Assembly (NCBI GenBank): GCA_022822085.1
Contig: JAJECK010000045.1
Location: 1 to 57,635, forward strand
Length of the DNA: 57,635 nt
From: Candidatus Poribacteria bacterium
Lineage (GTDB): Bacteria; Poribacteria; WGA-4E; WGA-3G
Direction: 5' to 3'
Of this stretch, positions 7,190 to 44,490 are shown in pieces. The notes below the pieces were generated by a model that did no database searches, was not told the origin of the DNA, and worked only from the letters and a program-made list of their open reading frames with translations. The number at the start of each line of letters is the position of its first letter. The first letter of the stretch is position 1. A program made the translations under genes and the position numbers.

Positions 7190-7936
7190 GTGCGTCTTGA
7201 AAAATACATCTCCGACTCAGGTATTGCATCACGCCGCGCTGTAAAACGAGCAATTCATGAAGGACATGTGACCGTTAATGGACATCAGATTACTATTCCC
7301 GGACATCCGATTGATCCAGAAACAGATGATATTGAATACCAAGGGAATAAGGTTGAGCCACTAACCGAATTTATTTATCTAATGTTAAATAAACCGCCAG
7401 GTTATTTGACAACCCGCCATGATGAGCGTGGAAGACCTATCGTTATGGATCTGTTAACCGACCTACCACAGTCGATTTATCCTGTTGGACGATTAGATTT
7501 TGAGACAGAGGGTTTATTGCTATTCACCAACGATGGAAATTTCGCCTATAAGATGATGCATCCCAGTCATGAGATAGAAAAAGCGTATCTTGTATGGGTC
7601 AATGGCATCCCGAGTAAACGCGCGCTTGAACGTCTCCGAAATGGTATCGCCATCTCAGGAGGGACTACTGCCCCAGCAAAAATCAAACAACTGGATGCAA
7701 AGACAACATCCCAATTATCTACTAATAGGAATGTAAGAAATACAGCTAAAATCGCCAAGTATAGAGTAATTATTCACGAGGGTAAGAAACGACAAGTTCG
7801 TTTAATGTTTAAGGCGGTAGGATATAGAGTTATCCGTCTGAAGCGGGTTCGGGTTGGTAGTTTAAGGTTAGGAAAACTTCCACAGGGGCAGTATAGATAC
7901 TTAACCCCTGCGGAAGTAGAGAAATTGCATACTTAA
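7190..7936 (+). CDS. pseudouridine synthase, RsuA/RluB family
   Basis: 248 residues, GTG start. An N-terminal S4 RNA-binding domain (LEKYISDSGIASRRAVKRAI) is followed by the catalytic domain with the GRLDFETEGLLLFTNDG motif whose Asp attacks the uridine. It isomerises a specific uridine in rRNA; whether the target is 16S (RsuA) or 23S (RluB/RluE/F) cannot be told from sequence alone, although the long basic insert near residues 165-185 is more RluB-like. Its stop overlaps by 4 bases the stop of the convergent selenoprotein gene. Confidence 0.88.
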   Translation: MRLEKYISDSGIASRRAVKRAIHEGHVTVNGHQITIPGHPIDPETDDIEYQGNKVEPLTEFIYLMLNKPPGYLTTRHDERGRPIVMDLLTDLPQSIYPVGRLDFETEGLLLFTNDGNFAYKMMHPSHEIEKAYLVWVNGIPSKRALERLRNGIAISGGTTAPAKIKQLDAKTTSQLSTNRNVRNTAKIAKYRVIIHEGKKRQVRLMFKAVGYRVIRLKRVRVGSLRLGKLPQGQYRYLTPAEVEKLHT

Positions 7937-8985
7937 CTCTCGTCTACATCTTCTGCGGATGCAGCGGCATCCTGAGCGCGTTTCAACATCATCTCAGCAT
8001 TTCGTAGTAGATTCTCATTTGTCCCATGAGTGATTAACTTCTCAAGCACGAGAATGGCTTTATCAAACTGCTTATGGATATGATATGTAACTCCCAAATA
8101 GTATTGGGCAGGTTCATACTCTTTACTCTCTTGATAATTTTCTATTACTTTTTGCAAGTGCAACACTGCTTTTTCAGCTAAAGCTTCATCGCTCGGTTTA
8201 GCTTGTAATTGCGTAGCATAAGCAAGACCGAGTTGGGTATGCAACTTTGATACATCACCTGTCGTATTCTCTGGATCCTTTGCAAATATCTTTTCACTGT
8301 AAGGTAGTGCTTTGTCAGGTTGTTGGATACCTATGTATGCGAATGCAAATTTACGATTGAGTACAAGATCATCAGGCATCTTTTTACTAATAGGAAGTGC
8401 CTTTGCAAATTGTTGACGATCAATATAGAGAACGGCAATTTCACGATTAATTTTAAGATCTTCTGGATTTTTCTTGTATGCAGCCAATTTGATTTTGAAA
8501 TCTGCCTCTTTTACAAGTGCAGTTTCCATCACTGGTGCAAATTTTTCAGGTGGAAGGTAGCCTGATTGGTTCGTAATTACACCGCCATCTGGGCTAATGA
8601 ACAGAATTGCTGGGAAACCTCTAATCCCGTATTTCCTACGTGTTTCCTCATTTATGGGACGTTCCTTAATCTCTGGATTTACTTTGATGTTGATGAATTT
8701 CTCAGAAAGAGAGATAACTTTTGCATCGGTGAAAGTGTCGGCATCCAGCCGTTTACAATATCCTCACCAATCAGTGTAGAAGTCCATCATAATCGGTTTG
8801 CCAGTTTCAGTGGAGAGTTTTGTAGCTTCCTCAACTGTCTCCACCCATTGGATTTTTGCTGTACTGGTCTCTTCGGTAACAGCTTCTTCACCTTCTGCAA
8901 AAACTGTGAATGAAACTGCCATCAATAAGAGAATAGTCAACCCAGCAAAATAATGGCCGTGTTTGTGTAAAACAGAATTATTCAT
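7933..8985 (-). CDS. selenocysteine-containing thioredoxin-like protein with TPR tail
   Basis: 350 residues if the in-frame TGA at 8764-8766 is read as selenocysteine. Signal peptide or anchor: residues about 8-30 (cleavage near TVFAEG). Thioredoxin fold from about 45: the sheet DFYTDW is followed by U74-GYC, so the active site is UxxC in place of CxxC, and the cis-proline loop RGFPAILF follows. The frame has no other stop through to 7933, and the downstream protein keeps perfect thioredoxin and then TPR character (about residues 165-340, repeated helical pairs). RBS TAGGAGAGA before the ATG at 8985. Probable envelope thiol-disulfide or peroxide chemistry. A nonsense mutation is the alternative but would need to hit exactly the nucleophilic Cys. 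Confidence 0.85.
8736..8757 (-). promoter_or_regulatory. candidate bacterial SECIS hairpin (thioredoxin gene)
   Basis: In the mRNA the stem CGGC/GCCG (8748-8751 with 8739-8742) closes the loop UGGAU; UGU/ACA pairs extend it below a three-A bulge. The loop begins 16 bases after the UGA and has G at its second position. This matches the known bacterial SECIS rule (short stem 16-37 bases after UGA, G in the first two loop positions). Confidence 0.65.
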
Positions 8986-9089
8986 TAATTCTCTCCTAAT
9001 ATGTATTAGCGATACTGTATGAGGGTTTTGTATGAATCACAATGCATGAACGGGAAACCCACCTAACCGCGCATCGTCTTAGTTTTCGT

Positions 9090-26508: not shown

Positions 26509-26805
26509 CTACTTATTTTCTTCATCTTGTTGTGTATTTAGTTGCTCCTTTATATCTGTCAATGATTCGTTCATTCTCGCCAATATGATTAGCACCTCAC
26601 AGACAATGCGTAATATGAGTGGAAATAAGACAAACCATAAAAATAATAATATAGGTAATTCATACCAATATGCCCCGCCAAAAAAACGGAAATTTACGAC
26701 AATTTGATAGATACCTGCAGCAATACAGAAATATAGACCAAGTCTAAACACAACGGGTATTATAGTTGGGATTAGTATCTTCTTTATATTCAAGAAATCT
26801 CTCAT
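26509..26805 (-). CDS. DUF4282-like small membrane protein
   Basis: 98 residues. Two transmembrane helices (about 15-38 and 48-70), then a short amphipathic tail with RMNESLTDIKEQL, the layout of DUF4282 proteins. RBS AAAGGTGGA. Function unknown. It is the last gene of the minus-strand run that begins far upstream, 33 bases after the aldolase. Confidence 0.65.
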   Translation of the reverse strand: MRDFLNIKKILIPTIIPVVFRLGLYFCIAAGIYQIVVNFRFFGGAYWYELPILLFLWFVLFPLILRIVCEVLIILARMNESLTDIKEQLNTQQDEENK

Positions 26806-26838
26806 AAGTCCACCTTTTGTCTCATAGTATTGTGTAAA

Positions 26839-27594
26839 TCAGATTCTGTTTTTTTCTGCCCGATGTTTATAATCTGCCGCACCAGATGAAATCCATCCAC
26901 CCACACCAACAAGTAAGAACTGAACGCCTGCTTTTACATATTTTTCTACGGTATCATCCAAAGCCAATGTGCCAGCAGCATGTCCTGCCTCTTGGATACG
27001 TGCTAACGCGTCATCAATAGTGTTTTGCACATCGGGATGATTATGATTGCCGATGTGTCCCATGGATGTCGCTAAATCTGATGGAGCAACAAAAAACACA
27101 TCAATATGGTCAACAGTGAGAATCTCGTCCAAGTTCTTCACTGCTTCTATGTCTTCAATGAGAACAACGAGTAACGTCTGCTCATTTGCCACATCAAAAT
27201 AGTTGTCCACGCCATACCCTTGTCGACTTGTGAACATGCCGCGATGTCCAATTGGTGCGAACTTTCCTCCATCAACGACATTCTGTGCTTCTGCCTTTGT
27301 GTTGACATGCGGAACGACTATTCCCATCGCTCCACAGTCTAATGTGCGGTAAATCAGTGCTTGGTCATTACGATTGACGCGAACAATAGAGGTCATACCC
27401 CATAAATCGCATGCACGTGTTAGATCTCCAAGATTTGTTGCACCTGCACTCCCATGTTCACCTTCTAACCACACACCATCAAAGCCGTTTGGTCCAAATG
27501 CATCAATATCATCAGCATTCGTCAATCCTGCAATGACATAAGCAAGTTCACCATTTGCTAATTTCTGTTTCACTTTATTTGGTCTTATTTCCAT
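26839..27594 (-). CDS. HpcH/HpaI-family aldolase
   Basis: 251 residues from ATG 27594, 13 bases after the ceramidase stop. Class II metal-dependent 2-oxo-acid aldolase: GVWLEGEHGSAG, VPHVNTKAEAQNVVDGG, GHRGMFTSRQGYG and VVLIEDIEAVKNLDEI with the metal-binding acidic residues. Family members cleave 2-keto-3-deoxy sugar acids to pyruvate and an aldehyde. The facing fuconate dehydratase makes such a substrate. Exact substrate not provable from sequence. Confidence 0.87.
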   Translation of the reverse strand: MEIRPNKVKQKLANGELAYVIAGLTNADDIDAFGPNGFDGVWLEGEHGSAGATNLGDLTRACDLWGMTSIVRVNRNDQALIYRTLDCGAMGIVVPHVNTKAEAQNVVDGGKFAPIGHRGMFTSRQGYGVDNYFDVANEQTLLVVLIEDIEAVKNLDEILTVDHIDVFFVAPSDLATSMGHIGNHNHPDVQNTIDDALARIQEAGHAAGTLALDDTVEKYVKAGVQFLLVGVGGWISSGAADYKHRAEKNRI

Positions 27595-27607
27595 ATTGCT
27601 CTCACTT

Positions 27608-28939
27608 TCAGTTATTAGAATTTTCAAGGAATTCTGTTGGCAGCACTTTATGAACTGTATCAATCACTAATTGTTCAACACCGGGTGCAAATCGTGTGGG
27701 TTGCCCAAAATATATCATTGCACCGCCGCCTTCATATCCTCCTTCTGCCAACACACGTTCTGATGGGATGTATCCCGGAAATGCGTTTGCGTAGGCACCT
27801 ACCCAAAGTCGCTTTGAGTCATACTCTTTCTTCAGTCGTAGTGAAAAATCTACTACCACTTCACTTGCAAGGAAGAGGACAGCCAATTGAGGACCGAATG
27901 TCCAGGCTTGGACTGGATAGGATATATCTGTTTTGATTTTCTCTCCATCGTCAATCATTTCAAGATGTTTTTGGGCATGGTATCCGATTGCTCCGCCTTG
28001 TGCTGCTCGTTCTTTCCATTCTTCCTGAGTAGGTAATTTATCAAATGGCAAATTCACCCTTTCAAATGCTCCTTTAGGGACATCGGTAAGGATGGTTGCT
28101 TCTCTATCAAGTTGATGTTTAACCTCTTCTGCAAGTGCCCGACCGTGTTCCTTGGCATAAGCAAGACGGGTTTCAAATACTTCCTGCTGCCCTTCTGGCA
28201 TTGGTCGCATACGAGACTCTGGATTTGCATCTGCCCCACATCCAATTGTAATTAATGCGGTGACATCAGGATGTGCCTTCTGGATCTCCTCCTGTGCAAA
28301 TCCTGCCCAGTCCCCACAGATATGATTATCTGAACCGGCTAAGGTGGTGCAGTGGCATGCATAACTTACCCAAACAGCATGCAAATTGTCTTCTGCATCA
28401 ATAAACTTCATGACTGGGAATGAGTGGTCAACAGGACCACCTTCTGTGCGTCTGTTCTTAGCAAAACTGAGTTCCCCAATATTCCATGCAATACGGCACG
28501 GTTTACGTCTTGTGATTGCTTCCATCGCGAGGACTTCCATCCAGTTTCCAAGTTCACGTGTGTAGCGATCAATTGTCTCTTGTTCTTCAGGAGATATATC
28601 GGAACTGAAAATAAAGGAGGCAGCATTTGTCAGACAGGGAGCACTGTGCGTGTGTGTATAACATGCTACAAAATTCTCACGTGGAATACCTGATTTGCCC
28701 TCAATTCGAATTGCTAAATCTTCTGTGAATTCATCAGGTAACCCGCAGTTTTCAACGGTTATCATAAGGACAGGTTCATCGTCATCCCCACCGATAACTA
28801 ACGCCTTTGCCCATATTCTCTGGATTATTCCCTCGGATACTGTTCGCCTACTGCCATAACCGTTGAGACGAATAGGGTAATCTGGAGTTATGTCTATCTG
28901 TGCAACACCAACTTCAATAAGATTATCATTTTCTACCAT
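27608..28939 (-). CDS. neutral/alkaline non-lysosomal ceramidase-like amidase
   Basis: 443 residues, only the N-terminal catalytic domain of the family (PF04734 type). It starts VGVAQIDITPDYPIRLNGYG; the zinc ligands are suggested by the HTHSAP motif and by SYACHCTTL and CGADANPES. No signal peptide, in contrast to secreted ceramidases, so the substrate may be intracellular and not ceramide. Such enzymes are frequent in Poribacteria and Planctomycetes near sugar-acid genes. RBS AAAGGA. Confidence 0.82.
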   Translation of the reverse strand: MVENDNLIEVGVAQIDITPDYPIRLNGYGSRRTVSEGIIQRIWAKALVIGGDDDEPVLMITVENCGLPDEFTEDLAIRIEGKSGIPRENFVACYTHTHSAPCLTNAASFIFSSDISPEEQETIDRYTRELGNWMEVLAMEAITRRKPCRIAWNIGELSFAKNRRTEGGPVDHSFPVMKFIDAEDNLHAVWVSYACHCTTLAGSDNHICGDWAGFAQEEIQKAHPDVTALITIGCGADANPESRMRPMPEGQQEVFETRLAYAKEHGRALAEEVKHQLDREATILTDVPKGAFERVNLPFDKLPTQEEWKERAAQGGAIGYHAQKHLEMIDDGEKIKTDISYPVQAWTFGPQLAVLFLASEVVVDFSLRLKKEYDSKRLWVGAYANAFPGYIPSERVLAEGGYEGGGAMIYFGQPTRFAPGVEQLVIDTVHKVLPTEFLENSNN

Positions 28940-43302: not shown

Positions 43303-44490
43303 CTAATCAGCAGCAAGGGCAAAAGTTTCAGGGTTTTCCGCTGCAGCATCATAATCATCAATGAGTTTGGTTATACTCGGATTCTTCCCACAAAGCGGGC
43401 AATTCTCATCACGAGGCACTTTCATTTCGCGATAGGTCATACTAAGCGCATCATATAGGATAAGTCTGCCGATAAGCGGTTCACCAATGCCGATAATATA
43501 CTTAATCGCTTCAGTCGCCATCATCACACCAATTACACCTGGGAGCACGCCCAGGACTCCTGCCTCACTTCAGCTTGGTACCATGCCCGGCGGTGGTGGC
43601 GTAGGATACATGCATCGGTAACAGGGCCCTTCATTCGGTTTGAAAAGTGTGACCTGTCCCTCAAACTGGAAAATACTCCCATGCACTACCGGTTTATTCA
43701 TCAACACCGCAGCATCGTTGACGAGGTAACGGGTCGCGAAGTTATCACATCCATCTACGATCAGGTCGTATTCAGAGAAAATCTCCTCCACATTGTCAGC
43801 AGTAAGTCGTAGGTTGTACGGTGTAATCTCAACATCAGGATTAAGAGATTTTATAGTCGTGGTTGCAGACTGAACTTTCGGGGTGCCAACCGCTTCTGTC
43901 CGATGTAATATCTGACGTTGCAGGTTGCTCAATTCCACCACATCTGAGTCTATTATTCCCATGTGACCTATACCTGCGGCACCGAGATATACACCCGCAG
44001 GTGAACCTAATCCACCAGCACCCACAAGTAGCACTTTCGCATCAAGTAACTTTGCTTGCCCGCGTTCACCAACTTCAGTCAGCATAAAATGGCGACTATA
44101 TCTGTCAAGTTGCTCATGCGACATCTCTTTATCTTGTGCGGTTGGGAAACCCGCAGCAGACCAGTCACGGTAGCCCCCAGCCATGGATACGGTATCGGTG
44201 TATCCCATTTCACGGAGTGATTTTGCAGCGAGGAGGGAGCGGAGTCCTGCGGCACAATATACAACTACTTTCTGATCTCGGTCAGGAATAAAATCCTCTA
44301 CAGAAAATTCCAGCATACCGCGAGTTACGTGCACTGCATCGGGGATATACCCCGCGCGATATTCGTCTTCATCACGCACATCTAACAGGACAAAGTCGCT
44401 TCCGTTTTCCTGTTCTTCTTTTACATCAGCGGCTGTGACTTCTGGAATCTCTGTTTTTGCCTCCTCTACGATTTGTCTATACGATTTCAT
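43303..44490 (-). CDS. selenocysteine-containing rhodanese-MoeB/ThiF fusion
   Basis: 395 residues if TGA at 43570-43572 is read as selenocysteine (residue 307). N-terminal rhodanese domain (about 15-118; active Cys79 in VVYCAAGLRS). E1-like domain: AVLVGAGGLGSPAG ATP site, SNLQRQILH, DGCDNFATRYLVND, zinc CxxC in GPCYRCMYP and CPLCGK. The TGA falls in GMVPS-U-SEAGVLGVLPG, where MoeB/ThiF/MOCS3 have the catalytic or acyl-transfer Cys (PSC/LTC-xEAGVLG). No other stop to 43303. RBS TTGGAG. Activates a sulfur-carrier protein C-terminus for molybdopterin, thiamine or tRNA thiolation. Confidence 0.87.
43538..43555 (-). promoter_or_regulatory. candidate bacterial SECIS hairpin (MoeB/ThiF gene)
   Basis: Perfect 6-bp stem CCUGGG / CCCAGG (mRNA positions from 43555-43550 and 43543-43538) with loop CGUGCU. 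The loop starts 20 bases after UGA and has G second, fitting bacterial SECIS rules. Confidence 0.7.

Follow-up and report, generated by a model that had tools for sequence, protein, structure and literature searches.

A conserved in-frame UGA in a Poribacteria thioredoxin–TPR gene and its reading as selenocysteine

The interrupted frame and its predicted product

The window analysed here, a stretch of 57,635 nucleotides, corresponds to contig C99 in a Candidatus Poribacteria assembly of 5.6 Mb that is 96.5% complete with 1.98% contamination. On its minus strand, read-through translation of positions 8985–7933 yields a frame of 350 residues with a single interruption, a TGA at 8766–8764, and a terminal TAA; a ribosome binding site, AGGAGAG (8991–8997, minus strand), lies 5 bases upstream of the ATG. 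We read the TGA, codon 74, as selenocysteine (Sec; U74) and the gene as encoding a putatively exported thioredoxin–TPR (Trx–TPR) selenoprotein. The mechanical list of open reading frames begins this gene only at 8532, and standard annotation would truncate the protein at residue 73 or call the TPR part alone.

The TGA coincides with the nucleophile of the thioredoxin active site. Its context is MMDFYTDW-U-GYCKRLDADTF, in which the active site reads W73-U-G-Y-C77, the UGYC redox motif occupies residues 74–77 (8755–8766), and the cis-Pro loop RGFPAILF, with its proline P125 (8611–8613), follows downstream. The Pfam families Thioredoxin_2, Thioredoxin_7 and Thioredoxin score above their cut-offs at about residues 46–152, with TPR repeats after them, and the matches to PF13098 and PF13899 (62.9 and 47.7 bits against a cut-off of 27), the CxxC-type site and the cis-Pro together identify a thioredoxin-fold thiol oxidoreductase. 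The thioredoxin-fold domain extends over about residues 43–160 (8506–8859) and the TPR solenoid over about residues 161–346 (7948–8505). An initial annotation had proposed the in-frame TGA, the thioredoxin features and the two motifs, all borne out by translation and Pfam, and also the TPR fusion, with which a TPR_19 match above the cut-off for the whole protein agrees. It had further called the product exported: residues 1–30 (8896–8985) are hydrophobic, end in V-F-A and form a probable signal peptide, and the hydrophobic N terminus recurs family-wide in a 37-sequence alignment, which supports export.

Conservation of the UGA and of the hairpin behind it

Homologues were sought in 85 genomes of the phylum, 73 of them in the order. 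As counted from the search listing, a TGA-containing homologue is present in 72 of the 73 order genomes and in one genome outside the order (G012); the lone order genome without one (G040) is 95% complete. Every one of the 79 distinct Poribacteria sequences that bear the TGA, including those from finished single-contig genomes, has it at the identical codon, well beyond what chance would give. One single-contig relative (G046) is placed in the genus of the source genome. In most relatives the gene also keeps its surroundings, following yidC–jag–mnmE and preceding a convergent rluB–HAD phosphatase–pdxJ–GDH block. U74, C77 and the cis-Pro P125 are invariant in the 37-sequence alignment, in which TPR length differs among family members. 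Against six homologues, dN/dS downstream of the TGA is 0.10–0.19, and purifying selection there is at least as strong as upstream.

Relatives with cysteine at the Sec position had been suggested as a further line of enquiry, and such homologues exist: an exported Aminicenantes protein (L080; WCPPC, with TGT) and a divergent sigma-factor fusion (L131; LCYWC, with TGC). No ordinary Cys orthologue was found among the 73 genomes searched in the order. In the sigma-factor fusion (G018:C6), one open reading frame, some 800 residues long, joins a sigma-factor-like region, the Cys thioredoxin–TPR part and a TolB-like propeller. Some genomes of the source genus also hold a second TGA-bearing Trx–TPR copy (L125–L129, L036) with a longer TPR region and often a DS-U-YWC site; this copy (MAQEAEKAQVKWGTS...) lacks an obvious signal peptide.

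The initial annotation had also pointed to a hairpin, CGGC-UGGAU-GCCG, behind the UGA. It is present at 8751–8739 (minus strand), the stem starting at nucleotide 16 when the U of the UGA is numbered 1, that is, after 12 intervening bases, with the loop GG at nucleotides 21–22; we assign it as the apical hairpin of a bacterial SECIS element. The hairpin is conserved as RNA, its codons being frozen at synonymous sites. The Leu codon within it is CTG in 79 of 79 sequences, whereas a conserved Leu close by uses CTG in 2 of 67. Arg is encoded by CGG in 70/71, Ala by GCC in 71/79 and Glu by GAA in 50/50. Many other codings of these amino acids would be possible, and outside the hairpin their codons do vary freely. 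Across 66 distinct sequences, pairing at the four positions of the stem is kept in 91, 98, 98 and 100%. Six distinct sequences of one lineage carry a compensatory change from G-C to A-U on both sides of the stem, at the cost of replacing Arg with Gln, although this covariation may represent a single event. A hairpin soon after the UGA, a G in the apical loop and constraint at the RNA level are together what is looked for in bacterial selenoprotein genes, and all three are seen here. The window hairpin is energetically unexceptional, its stability being equalled or exceeded in 9% of synonymous recodings, and RNAfold favoured competing folds for some of the other SECIS elements; because folding energy alone is not decisive, the case for a SECIS element rests on conservation. 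An Rfam search around the TGA returned matches below the gathering score only.

Evidence for selenocysteine decoding in the source genome

The source genome encodes selA, selB, selC and selD, with strong matches to SelA (E = 4.7e-163), SelB (E = 1.1e-105) and SelD (E = 1.8e-109) and a tRNA-Sec gene (selC, anticodon UCA) that directly adjoins selB. Absence of this machinery had been named at the outset as grounds for abandoning the Sec reading, and its presence removes that objection. SelA is widespread over the phylum and occurs together with the TGA gene in finished genomes, G046, G080 and G082–G084 among them. In several carrier metagenome-assembled genomes (MAGs; for example, G035, G048 and G061) SelA is missing or represented only by a distant paralogue or fragment; since the finished genomes have both SelA and the gene, these are probably assembly gaps. 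SelD of the source genome is itself a selenoprotein candidate, with a CAG-U-ASK site and GCUC-CGGGU-GAGC downstream (L132; G000:C140, near 3214, minus strand).

Several readings that dispense with Sec can be weighed against these observations. A sequencing error or a pseudogene would look just like a lone stop in a lone MAG, but the same TGA recurs in 73 genomes, finished single-contig ones among them, with purifying selection on both sides; we reject this explanation, whose probability is negligible, and with it the misread TGC that had been proposed as a possible refutation. Genome-wide reassignment of UGA to Trp, Gly or Cys would equally produce an in-frame TGA, yet TGA ends 11 of the 40 sizeable genes of the window as well as some homologues of the Trx–TPR gene, and tRNA-Sec and the full sel set are present; with TGA in use as an ordinary stop, this reading is also rejected as highly improbable. 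Slightly less remote, and still very unlikely, is that the UGA acts as a termination or regulatory signal, so that the downstream frame is rarely made and the switch is what matters. Sec insertion does compete with termination, with a reported 30–40% recoding in vivo (PMC4513850); the purifying selection downstream, at least equal to that upstream, and the conservation of the whole thioredoxin and TPR parts argue instead for a product that is made in full. We regard Sec insertion at UGA-74, as judged from the sequence evidence, as near certain.

Two other in-frame TGAs were considered in the window. A 109-codon extension past the TGA at 26839 was rejected as a selenoprotein and is a separate downstream ORF: the frame at 26509–26838 (minus strand) encodes a small hydrophobic protein, in frame behind the TGA stop of an aldolase-like gene (26839–27663), and is an ordinary neighbour. 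The frame at 43303–44490 (minus strand), with a TGA at 43570–43572, is a second selenoprotein candidate of rhodanese–ThiF/MoeB type (VPS-U-SEAGVLG), and Pfam ThiF spans the whole read-through; a recent review already lists Sec-containing MoeB as a selenoprotein (PMC13188914).

Fold, known relatives and proposed role

An AlphaFold2 model (37 family members) has a pLDDT of 91.1, with a helix modelled at residues 10–29. Its thioredoxin domain matches an exported Bacteroides thioredoxin domain (3f9u; Z 16.9, rmsd 1.8, 124 aligned), DsbH (2ju5; Z 16.6) and DsbD-gamma (Z about 15–16), and the remainder of the model resembles TPR domains, including the YbgF one (2xev; Z 16.8, rmsd 1.8, 122 aligned). 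The predicted fold is thus a DsbD-gamma/DsbH-like thioredoxin followed by a TPR solenoid. The likeness to the DsbD C-terminal (gamma) domain and DsbH extends over about 115 residues at Z 15–17, but the Poribacteria protein differs from both in its TPR fusion, its Sec in place of Cys and its lack of attached DsbD membrane domains; the full-length score against the DsbD family NF001419 is 59.9, well short of the 330-bit cut-off. The genome encodes one DsbD, which has its own Cys thioredoxin domain.

CnoX/YbbN chaperedoxins are cytoplasmic and have GroEL/ES and DnaK as partners, whereas the signal-peptide-like N terminus of the Poribacteria protein would, if it acts as such, place it outside the cytoplasm. 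Beyond this probable export signal, it differs from them in its DsbD-gamma-like thioredoxin subtype and in having Sec where they have the first Cys (or Ser in Escherichia coli). Both begin with a thioredoxin domain and end with a TPR region (PMC6282202), and YbbN/CnoX structures (3qou, 3qdn) are the best full-length Foldseek matches, at TM-scores of 0.24–0.30 that do not establish a common overall arrangement; despite the common domain order, membership of CnoX is not established.

Known selenoprotein families come close only in part. TsoB, a rhodanese/DsbD-fusion selenoprotein (NF045694), is the best NCBIfam match, through its C-terminal thioredoxin part, but the Poribacteria protein has no rhodanese part and scores 72.5 bits against a cut-off of 805; the Trx7/PDZ (seleno)protein NF041199 gives 24 against 300 bits. 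A 2026 review (PMC13188914) and a 2022 review (PMC9312934) list a thiol:disulfide interchange protein, PF13098, with UxxC as a predicted selenoprotein, and PMC2398784 has a Trx-like 2 (cd02953) selenoprotein group. The Poribacteria family resembles these in its Thioredoxin_2-type domain and in having Sec first in UxxC; going by the published descriptions, which mention no TPR fusion, that fusion may set it apart. The portions of the selenoprotein literature searched, including these three sources, do not mention a TPR or tetratricopeptide fusion, and the part searched for the word does not mention Poribacteria. Queries combining Poribacteria with selenoprotein or selenocysteine, and tetratricopeptide with selenoprotein, matched no such family in titles and abstracts, with few subscription journals covered. 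UxxC thioredoxin selenoproteins are therefore already known, and the order-wide TPR-fused family is without a name in the reviews searched, in line with the initial annotation, which had linked this architecture to no named selenoprotein.

We propose, with a probability of roughly 0.85 for the explanation as a whole, that the gene encodes a true selenoprotein, an exported Sec-containing thiol:disulfide reductase that works in the envelope much as CnoX chaperedoxins do in the cytoplasm. The reductase assignment draws on the DsbD-gamma/DsbH-like fold, the hydrophobic N terminus and the presence of DsbD in the genome. Judging from the machinery and the element, SelB carrying Sec-tRNA-Sec would bind the hairpin that closely follows UGA-74, and Sec would be inserted where translation would otherwise terminate. 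The product would then be exported, as its N terminus suggests, and would reduce envelope proteins at their disulfides or oxidised thiols, with Sec74 attacking as the nucleophile and Cys77 resolving; the oxidised selenenylsulfide could be recycled by the genome-encoded membrane DsbD or an equivalent electron source, while the TPR solenoid might dock client or partner proteins and so make the protein CnoX-like in its action. Export, redox direction, reductase role, partner and clients are all inferred here.

An alternative that keeps Sec, which we consider unlikely, is that the protein is chiefly a holdase chaperone, or the dedicated reductant of a single partner (a peroxidase, for instance, or a methionine sulfoxide reductase), with the TPR region as its main working part. 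The variable TPR length, the YbbN/CnoX domain order and Foldseek match and the holdase activity of CnoX proteins (PMC6282202) are compatible with this; the invariance of U74, C77 and the cis-Pro and the resemblance of the thioredoxin domain to DsbD-gamma, a reductant relay, speak against it. Sec is costly, and with those three residues invariant the redox site is under strong selection.

Most selenoproteins have many Cys homologues. That 72 of the 73 order genomes searched keep the Sec gene, with no Cys orthologue found in the order, implies selenium dependence of these bacteria. The family adds a Trx–TPR architecture to the bacterial selenoproteome, and its 79 natural variants form a clean data set for the recognition of bacterial SECIS elements by SelB. 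More tentatively, and as a suggestion that may well prove wrong, the family could represent a selenium-based exported chaperedoxin, with Sec fixed in the Poribacteria order and copies arrayed in tandem in another phylum; Sec and a TPR region of chaperone-like character would then act jointly in envelope proteostasis.

That other phylum, which contains an Aminicenantes genome (G085), has distantly related, putatively exported UxxC Trx–TPR genes in which U takes the same position. Some of them carry an 8–9 bp stem unrelated to the Poribacteria stem and a GGU loop at nucleotide 22, the same distance from the UGA. All five carrier genomes have SelA, partial in one of them (G194). One locus (L158; G231:C101:25800-31500) holds three putatively exported UxxC Trx–TPR selenoprotein genes in tandem, with strong GGU-loop hairpins.
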